64,000 bases of DNA. Source: Rhodanobacter sp. C06. Lineage in GTDB: Bacteria; Pseudomonadota; Gammaproteobacteria; Xanthomonadales; Rhodanobacteraceae. Where the stretch lies: positions 124,001-188,000 of the forward strand of contig NZ_MUNP01000043.1 of NCBI RefSeq assembly GCF_002001105.1, in the 5' to 3' direction. The position numbers and the translations under genes are program-made. Under the pieces are notes generated by a model. The model saw only the letters and a program-made list of their open reading frames with translations, did not search any database and had not been told where the DNA came from. Each line of letters opens with the position of its first letter. Positions within the stretch are counted from its first letter, which is position 1. This document shows positions 62,656 through 64,000 of the stretch, one piece after another.

Positions 62656-62982
62656 TCAGAGCGCCTTGTCGATCATCTGGGCCAGCTGACCCTTGCTGAC
62701 GGCGCCGATCTGGGTGGCCTCGACCTTGCCGTTCTTGAACACCATCAGGGTAGGGATGCCGCGCACGCCGTAGGTGCGGGGGGTCTTCTGGTTGTGGTCG
62801 ATGTTGATCTTCACGATGCGCAGCTTGCCCTGGTACTGGCCGGCCAGCTCGTCGAGGATCGGCGCGATGGCCTTGCACGGGCCGCACCATTCGGCCCAGA
62901 AATCCAGCAGCACGGGGGTGTCGGATTGCAGTACTTCCTGCTCGAAGGCGTCGTCGCTCACATGGGTAATCAGGTCGCTCAC
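62656..62982 (-). CDS. trxA: Thioredoxin
   Basis: Thioredoxin is the general cytoplasmic disulfide reductase; it would also serve the fRMsr at 53436. The GTG at 62982 has GGAG seven bases upstream and gives 108 aa, the length of E. coli TrxA. The active site is WCGPC with Cys33 and Cys36 in [17 protein letters not shown]; the cis-Pro loop [14 protein letters not shown] is present. It precedes rho on the minus strand and is divergent from rhlB, an arrangement known in gammaproteobacteria. Confidence 0.97.
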
Positions 62983-63175
62983 CGGGGTCTCCGAAAGGCG
63001 GGTGGAAGGAAGGTTTGGCGACCACGCGGCCAGCATCGGCTACACTGGGGTGCCCATGAAGCGCGGGTCGAACCGGGAAAGAGGGGTTTTGGCCATTGCG
63101 GCCCGGAACCTCATTGCAACGTAACTCGGGGCGCGATTCAAGCGATTCAAGGGCGGCAACGGACGGTTCCGTTGA

Positions 63176-63247
63176 CATAGGCGAGGCGGCTCAAGCGTTT
63201 GCGTAGCAAACGCGCAGATACGGGTCCGTCGAGTCGTTTCGCCTATG
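63176..63247. ncRNA. Candidate structured RNA or palindromic element between trxA and rhlB
   Basis: Bases 63176-63192 (CATAGGCGAGGCGGCTC) pair with 63231-63247 (GAGTCGTTTCGCCTATG) in a continuous 17-bp helix, 14 Watson-Crick and 3 G-T pairs. Inside it are a perfect 8-bp hairpin, GCGTTTGC-GTA-GCAAACGC (63195-63213), and a weaker ACG/CGT hairpin (63220-63229), together a three-way junction. A TTGACA box lies at 63172-63177. It is about 195 bp from both the trxA and rhlB starts. I do not recognise a known family. It could be a leader element, a small RNA or a REP-like DNA palindrome. Confidence 0.5.
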
Positions 63248-63442
63248 CCAGCGGGACTGCCGGTTGCACTGCAACCGTTTCGGCGCCCTCCGCGGCTTCG
63301 GAGCGCCGGCCGGCGAGCCTGCTCGCCGCCGTGCGCTGCGTACCGCCGCGCGCCGCTCATCCCACCGCTCCGTGTCCGCCTCCGGCGGCGGAGCCGGGCC
63401 GGCTTCGACGCCTGTGCCCGCATCCCACCGGCTTTTCCTTCC
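63248..63442 (+). promoter_or_regulatory. rhlB: Hairpin-rich 5' leader of rhlB
   Basis: No gene is seen here. Stems include CGGTTGCA-C-TGCAACCG (63261-63277) and CGGCGAG-CCTG-CTCGCCG (63311-63328). With the element at 63176-63247 they form a structured leader before the helicase start. DEAD-box helicase genes are sometimes autoregulated through such leaders. The trxA side of the gap (62983-63171) has a direct repeat GCGATTCAA GCGATTCAA near 63133-63150 and nothing else clear. Confidence 0.4.
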
Positions 63443-64000
63443 ATGTCGCAAACCGTACTCACCGATACCTTCTTCACCAACTTCGAACTTCATCCGCTGC
63501 TGCAGCAAGGCCTGGCTGACGCCGGCTTCACCCGCTGCACGCCGATCCAGGAACTGACCCTGCCGGTGGCGCTGGCCGGCCGCGACGTCGCCGGCCAGGC
63601 GCAGACCGGCACCGGCAAGACCTGCGCCTTCCTGGTCGCGCTGATGAACCGCCTGCTGACCACGCCCGCGGTGGCCGAGCGCAAGGACACCGACCCGCGC
63701 GCGCTGGTGATCGCGCCCACCCGCGAGCTGGCGATCCAGATCGACAAGGATGCCCGCGCCATCGGTGCACGCACCGGCCTGAAGACCGCGCTGATCTACG
63801 GCGGCGTGGACTACGACAAGCAGCGCCAGCAGCTGCACGACGGCTGCGACATCATCATCGCCACGCCCGGCCGCCTGCTCGACTACTACAAGCAGCAGGT
63901 GTTCGGCTTCAACGGCGTCGAGGTGATGGTGATCGACGAGGCCGACCGCATGTTCGACCTCGGTTTCATCAAGGACGTGCGCTTCATCTTCCGCCGCCTG
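63443..64000 (+). CDS. rhlB: DEAD-box RNA helicase RhlB (5' part, runs off the window)
   Basis: The ATG at 63443 opens a frame that continues to the window end (186 codons). RhlB unwinds RNA, often in the degradosome. The visible part has the Q motif [23 protein letters not shown] (core FTRCTPIQ), Walker A AQTGTGKT (motif I), PTRELAIQI (Ia), GG (in IYGGVDY), ATPGRLLD (Ib) and [13 protein letters not shown] (motif II). The start [17 protein letters not shown] is close to Xanthomonas RhlB. Divergent from trxA across a 460-bp structured region. Confidence 0.95.

Follow-up and report, generated by a model that had tools for sequence, protein, structure and literature searches.

Leader operators that depend on RNase III contain an RNA helix longer than about 20 bp, and the feedback element in the 5' UTR of E. 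coli rne is represented by Rfam family RF00040. The E. coli genes rne, pnp and rnc are all described as feeding back through their own mRNAs (PMC3997798, excerpt), and the action of the rne 5' UTR on its own gene is likewise reported (PMC10989929, excerpt). Among RNA helicases, CrhR of Synechocystis is described as autoregulatory (PMC3485376, excerpt), and the mRNA of E. coli rhlB is reported to be leaderless, its -10 box lying immediately before the start codon (PMC4681348, excerpt).

The window analysed here, a stretch of 64,000 nt from Rhodanobacter sp. C06, contains trxA on the minus strand and, diverging from it on the plus strand, a DEAD-box helicase gene, which we name rhlB after its relation to E. 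coli RhlB. A sequence-only reading had drawn attention to positions 63176-63247, where 17 continuous pairs enclose two hairpins, one of 8 bp and a smaller one. Folding confirms this arrangement, as well as its central location between the two genes, with a minimum free energy of -39.7 kcal/mol (z -6.8) that none of 200 shuffles equalled in stability. The limits given to the helix were wrong, since an A.C mismatch (63175/63248) is followed outwards by 11 pairs, a bulged A at 63163 and 3 more pairs. The 17-bp helix is hence the inner half of a plus-strand hairpin of 103 nt and 31 pairs (63160-63262), designated P1, with the conserved core CCGUUGACAUAGG / CCUAUGCCAGCGG (Table 1). The same reading had dismissed a simple terminator, and indeed there is no terminator-like site, that is, a GC-rich hairpin followed by a run of T, in 62980-63460. 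Helix length alone is only moderately surprising in such GC-rich DNA: shuffling the 444-nt region 300 times produced an uninterrupted helix of at least 17 pairs once, and the best ungapped 27-pair helix contains 18-24 pairs in 26 intergenic regions without P1 as compared to 22-26 in those with it. The case for P1 therefore rests on its conservation in relatives.

Table 1. Positions of P1 and neighbouring features in the window
Feature	Position	Strand	Remarks
P1, long hairpin	arms 63160-63192 and 63231-63262	+	17 + 11 + 3 pairs; fold, conservation, covariation, matches of model R1
P1 interior, variable	63193-63230	+	8-bp hairpin and small hairpin here; sequence, length and shape not conserved
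P2 helix	CGGCGC 63281-63286 with GCGCCG 63350-63355	+	encloses a variable domain
P3 hairpin	63367-63372 with 63389-63394	+	covarying
P4 hairpin	63395-63403 with 63410-63420	+	covarying; about 20 nt ahead of rhlB start
TACACT box, candidate rhlB -10	63041-63046	+	putative; no good -35
Candidate trxA promoter	63113-63150	-	putative; TTGAAT 63136-63141, 17 nt, TGCAAT 63113-63118
Second upstream TTGAAT of candidate trxA promoter	63145-63150	-	
rhlB, DEAD-box RNA helicase	63443-64000	+	ATG start, no Shine-Dalgarno

At the gathering score, Rfam 15 has no match in the window, the RNase E 5' UTR element included, in agreement with the earlier statement that no known riboswitch or leader could be recognised. 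A relaxed scan (E up to 5) of 62980-63480 returned only RF01718 (Polynucleobacter-1), at 13.6 bits against the 37 needed and E 1.4, and no paper on a rhlB leader RNA from this bacterial group was found in the open-licence literature. Like the rne 5' UTR element as described in the excerpts cited above, the predicted rhlB leader is structured and stands ahead of a gene for a core component of the RNA degradosome; unlike it, the gene encodes a helicase and not a nuclease, the structure is dominated by a 31-bp helix, and Rfam returns no match at threshold. With the double-stranded operators of E. coli pnp and rnc it shares a leader structure ahead of an RNA-decay gene, and, set against the length of such operators, P1 offers a helix of 31 pairs, interrupted by one mismatch and one bulge, upstream of rhlB in what is presumably a transcribed leader; the gene differs, and cleavage has been demonstrated for pnp and rnc, whereas P1 is known here from its sequence. 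With crhR it shares an association with an RNA helicase gene, and crhR is reported to control its own expression partly after transcription, but crhR is regulated by temperature and light in an unrelated lineage, and the excerpt of its description (PMC3485376) mentions no such helix. As regards E. coli rhlB, the helicase gene corresponds, but in place of the leaderless start reported there (PMC4681348, excerpt) a structured leader is conserved, and a TANNNT box lies within 16 nt of the rhlB start in only 1 of 71 relatives. P1 has the features of a cis-acting structured leader, namely covarying helices, one strand and a constant place 5' of one gene. A complex multi-helix leader ahead of a helicase gene might also be a temperature or ligand switch, the more so as CrhR, another bacterial RNA helicase, is reported to be temperature-regulated (PMC3485376, excerpt), but we consider this improbable, since P1 has no conserved loop or junction able to hold a ligand, a GC-rich helix of 31 bp would be unlikely to melt under physiological conditions, and no Rfam riboswitch matches.

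Compensatory changes, on which the sequence-only reading had made its RNA interpretation depend, are present in relatives. In alignment A1 (30 rows), scored against the consensus structure of A1 itself, pairing is kept in 98.6% of 780 cells, 25 cells are changed on both sides, and the pairing share, the number of doubly changed cells and the covariation score were each reached by none of 500 shuffles. Weaker measures from the same alignment were the number of pairs changed on both sides (5, as high in 16 of 500 shuffles) and of further pair types (49 of 500). Examples are CAUAGG/CCUAUG alongside CAUUGG/CCAAUG and GGCGA/UCGCC alongside GGUGA/UCACC, and in the wider set the outer half of P1 varies as well, with GUUGACAUAGG/CCUAUGCCAGC replaced by GCUGGCAUAGG/CCUAUGCCGGC. 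Because related sequences are not independent, counts on a tree are the better guide. On a FastTree phylogeny of rhlB and trxA with 73 of 74 sequences (L079, without trxA, was dropped), parsimony over 28 pair columns, with the mismatch column omitted and the anchored ATxGG/CCxAT pairs invariant by construction, gave 53 compensatory changes, 104 one-sided changes that keep the pair, 57 that break it and 38 others, while slid pairings on the same tree gave 2, 5, 5, 6, 7 and 13 compensatory changes.

Selection acts on this helix with a marked preference for one strand. Over 26 in-register columns of 74 sequences (mismatch column set aside), G-U cells on the rhlB-sense strand number 300 as compared to 16 A-C cells, the former occurring in 16 of these columns and the latter in 4. 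With the anchor columns excluded, G-U exceeds A-C in 73 of 74 sequences, with one tie, and in all 30 sequences of the first set it is the rhlB-sense strand that folds better. Such an asymmetry points to an RNA read toward rhlB, as an element acting as double-stranded DNA would be indifferent to the strand on which a G-T pair falls, and the earlier use of the G-T pairs as a sign of RNA selection is borne out accordingly. P1 starts upstream of the distal of the two -35-like hexamers of trxA, at a distance of about 10 bp, and its arms are near-palindromic, as might be expected of an operator or palindrome for a DNA-binding protein, for instance upstream of the trxA promoter, or of a dispersed repeat of REP/MITE type. 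We hold a DNA element of either sort to be highly improbable, given the strand asymmetry, a single copy in the genome and the fact that P1 stays intact in six loci (L037, L040, L049, L050, L052 and L055) in which about 30-270 nt of extra sequence changes its spacing to the trxA promoter block, which disfavours an operator for trxA at fixed spacing. In L040 and L049, which are Dyella-type, the sequence inserted between the trxA promoter block and P1 measures about 270 nt, contains long inverted repeats and resembles a MITE; the other four loci carry shorter inserts, about 30-60 nt, at the same point. Selection on RNA structure, as the sequence-only reading had proposed, is thus supported by covariation, strand bias and single copy number together.

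With regard to copy number, the check proposed earlier for a dispersed palindrome found P1 only once in its own genome by BLAST, and a REP/MITE-type palindrome was rejected on this ground. The core 11-mer occurs at three exact places in that genome, of which P1 alone gives a significant match to R1, a covariance model built from 30 sequences; leaving aside the reverse strand at P1 itself, the R1 matches that follow in rank have E values of 0.075 and 9.9. Among relatives, a BLAST search with a 123-nt query gave matches in 91 of 197 family genomes (E<=0.1), many of them through short pieces, and all 30 BLAST loci are flanked by trxA (minus) and, on the opposite side, by rhlB (plus). Scanning the genome collection with a pattern gave 46 places, which lie in Rhodanobacter, Dyella, Luteibacter, Fulvimonas, Frateuria and MAGs, 41 of them flanked by both genes and the other 5 by one of the two, with only rhlB (L078, L079) or only trxA (L059, L067, L071) in the readable flanks. 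Wherever flanks can be read, P1 hence lies between trxA and rhlB, at 105-199 nt from rhlB, whereas insertions as long as about 270 nt occur on the side of trxA. A search anchored on ATxGG/CCxAT covered 172 loci and found 136 copies, 74 of them distinct; 30 loci lacked the anchored hairpin and 6, being weak or chance model matches, lacked trxA and rhlB. This search missed the P1-bearing loci L053 and L133 (one genome) and L163, and also L067, which is cut at its end.

Under strict filters, with which some weak matches are lost, R1 at E<=0.01 matched 92 of the 233 genomes of the family, which represent 13 of its 26 genera, and, under the same kind of filters, 51 of 299 genomes drawn across the order at E<=0.1. 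Six of the matches among these 299 genomes fall outside the family (E 0.002-0.07), none beside an identified rhlB: in five, the rhlB gene is located about 1 Mb from the match or on a different contig, and in the sixth, G285, rhlB was not found in the genome and the region around the match lacks trxA and rhlB. The range among relatives is therefore narrower than had been guessed, with half of the genera of one family matched and the rest of the order giving no convincing match among the 299 genomes. Second R1 matches within single genomes are weak in G179 (E 0.0055), G165 (E 0.0099) and G000 (E 0.075). In G178 the second match is significant (E 5.9e-5) and was rejected as an unrelated REP-like palindrome between other genes, TGTAGGAGCCGATTCATCGGCGA...TCGCCGATGAATCGGCTCCTACA at about 1380-1465 of L198, scored by the P1 model; the ORF beside it reads by eye like a TolC-type outer-membrane efflux protein. 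At the place of P1 in G166 (L172) stands a hairpin of about 130 nt, which is not P1 and belongs to a three-copy repeat of that genome; its two further copies have 77-80% identity and it looks like a mobile palindrome. In G004, of the same genus and rated 99% complete, RhlB has no match at E<=1e-60. A protein tree, poorly supported at some of its nodes, places P1 almost entirely within one clade, some members of which are without it, and this suggests a single origin followed by several losses. With 13 of 26 family genera without a match and a decayed, visibly broken copy in L179, P1 must be dispensable. At the level of sequence, the comparison demonstrates a helix conserved as RNA in the sense of rhlB, at a fixed place upstream of that gene and largely in one clade, a branch of soil bacteria.

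What is kept within P1 is the paired core. When 102 distinct intergenic regions were rescanned without the anchor, P1 came out as the best helix in 74 of them, and in L040 and L049, which carry P1, the best helix is formed by the inserted repeat. The core reads AUAGG/CCUAU in 70 of 74 P1 helices and AUUGG/CCAAU in 2, with one broken core pair in each of L053 and L163, although this conservation is somewhat overstated, the loci having been found through similarity to sequence or model. The A.C mismatch is found in 60 of 74, the others having G-C, A-U, G-U, U.C or U.U. On the other hand, the interior is free: between AUxGG and CCxAU it spans 32 to 78 nt among the 74 distinct relatives, and the three-way junction described earlier is local to this sequence, is not conserved and was rejected as a defining part. 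Since the interior lengths are spread evenly over the three frames, P1 is not coding. An AUG in its 3' arm (CCUAUGCCAGCGG) opens a frame that runs into rhlB in the window, and an upstream ORF serving as a conserved N-terminal extension was rejected, the corresponding frame in relatives being 0, 1 or 2 with respect to rhlB and often closing early. A helix that is kept while its interior varies in length and sequence, and that is missing from some relatives inside the clade, could be a passive hairpin that senses nothing and protects the 5' part of the rhlB mRNA or shields it from divergent trxA transcription. Such a role is doubtful, as it leaves a nearly fixed sequence unexpected, and 72 of 74 helices keep one of the two core forms, even if the search by similarity favours conserved sequence. 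The nearly fixed core could instead reflect recognition by something other than RNase III.

Structure continues from P1 to the start of rhlB. The intergenic alignment comprises 71 of the 74 regions, L040 and L049 having been dropped for length and L079 for its missing trxA. In P2, 61-70 of the 71 sequences pair at five of the six pairs and 57 at the sixth; the pairing is well kept and the covariation modest. For P3 and P4, in 56 of the 71 sequences and with a structure taken from another alignment of the same sequences, hence not independent, 85.8% of 783 cells pair and 109 cells are doubly changed against a shuffled mean of 41, while slid pairings leave only 36-47% of cells paired. RNAalifold on the P3/P4 alignment A2 called no pairs, perhaps owing to shifted Luteibacter rows.

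Upstream of P1, the TACACT box has at least 97% identity in each of its six columns over the 71 aligned regions, GGCTACACT with up to 2 substitutions is found in all 71, and, judged by eye, 23 of the 26 listed loci that lack P1 have a TACACT, TAAACT or TACAAT box. We infer that this box is the -10 of the rhlB promoter. The block at 63113-63150 is strongly conserved, has a similar counterpart in several relatives that lack P1 and probably represents the promoter of trxA. A consensus sigma-70 scan of 62980-63460 called no promoter for either gene. If both candidates are used, as their conservation suggests, the predicted mRNAs would overlap by about 50 nt at their 5' ends; boxes resembling both candidates occur also in relatives without P1. 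Since the E. coli rhlB mRNA is reported to be leaderless (PMC4681348, excerpt), a long rhlB leader is an assumption here. A Shine-Dalgarno-like motif precedes rhlB in only 1 of 71 relatives, though the predicted mRNA is not leaderless.

The strong strand-specific structure of P1 with its nearly fixed core, the absence of a Shine-Dalgarno sequence in the other 70 relatives and the leaderless rhlB of E. coli (PMC4681348, excerpt) would also suit a free small RNA, that is, a stable trans-acting transcript, whether made from a separate promoter or released from the rhlB leader by cleavage. This is nonetheless quite unlikely, because no terminator-like site exists in 62980-63460, P3 and P4 carry structure on to the rhlB start, and the fixed core is paired and not an open loop, which would suit a protein better than base-pairing with a target. 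Overall, P1 is very probably a conserved cis-acting RNA of the rhlB leader, judging from the comparative data. As an element it is new as far as our searches go, and in kind it likely belongs to the known class of structured regulatory leaders.

How such a leader would act can be set out as follows. Transcription from a promoter around the TACACT box would give the rhlB mRNA a leader of about 390 nt. P1, P2, P3 and P4 would form in this leader, upstream of a start codon lacking a Shine-Dalgarno sequence. RNase III and/or the degradosome of RhlB and RNase E would recognise P1, with its 31 bp and nearly fixed core, and cut or open it, and this processing would set the stability or the translation of the rhlB mRNA, so that the RNA-decay capacity of the cell would feed back on the production of its helicase. 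This complete scheme, in which P1 is an operator read by RNase III or the degradosome and confers feedback control on RhlB, is the explanation we favour, but it is put forward tentatively, by analogy with rne, pnp, rnc and the helicase CrhR. A more specific and, in our estimate, unlikely version would make P1 a gauge of the degradosome: RhlB, recruited with RNase E, would open or fail to open P1 and thereby expose or hide RNase III/RNase E sites, such that the activity of the helicase itself, and not the amount of protein, would be measured on its own mRNA. No published case of an operator that gauges a degradosome helicase was found in the open-licence literature. If this gauge existed, it would be an operator built for the gene of the degradosome's helicase, replacing the leaderless arrangement reported for E. 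coli.

For the biology of the family, P1 represents a clade-limited RNA element without an Rfam match, whose paired core is strikingly conserved, and it probably helps to control the amount of RhlB, an enzyme of mRNA decay. Should the leader be real, the feedback through their own mRNAs reported for RNase E, PNPase and RNase III, all nucleases of E. coli (PMC3997798, excerpt), would be extended to the helicase of the degradosome, and a conserved rhlB leader would also be an RNA of natural origin on which to assay RhlB and RNase III. As compared to the leaderless arrangement reported for E. coli (PMC4681348, excerpt), such a conserved leader would constitute a lineage-specific layer of control over rhlB.
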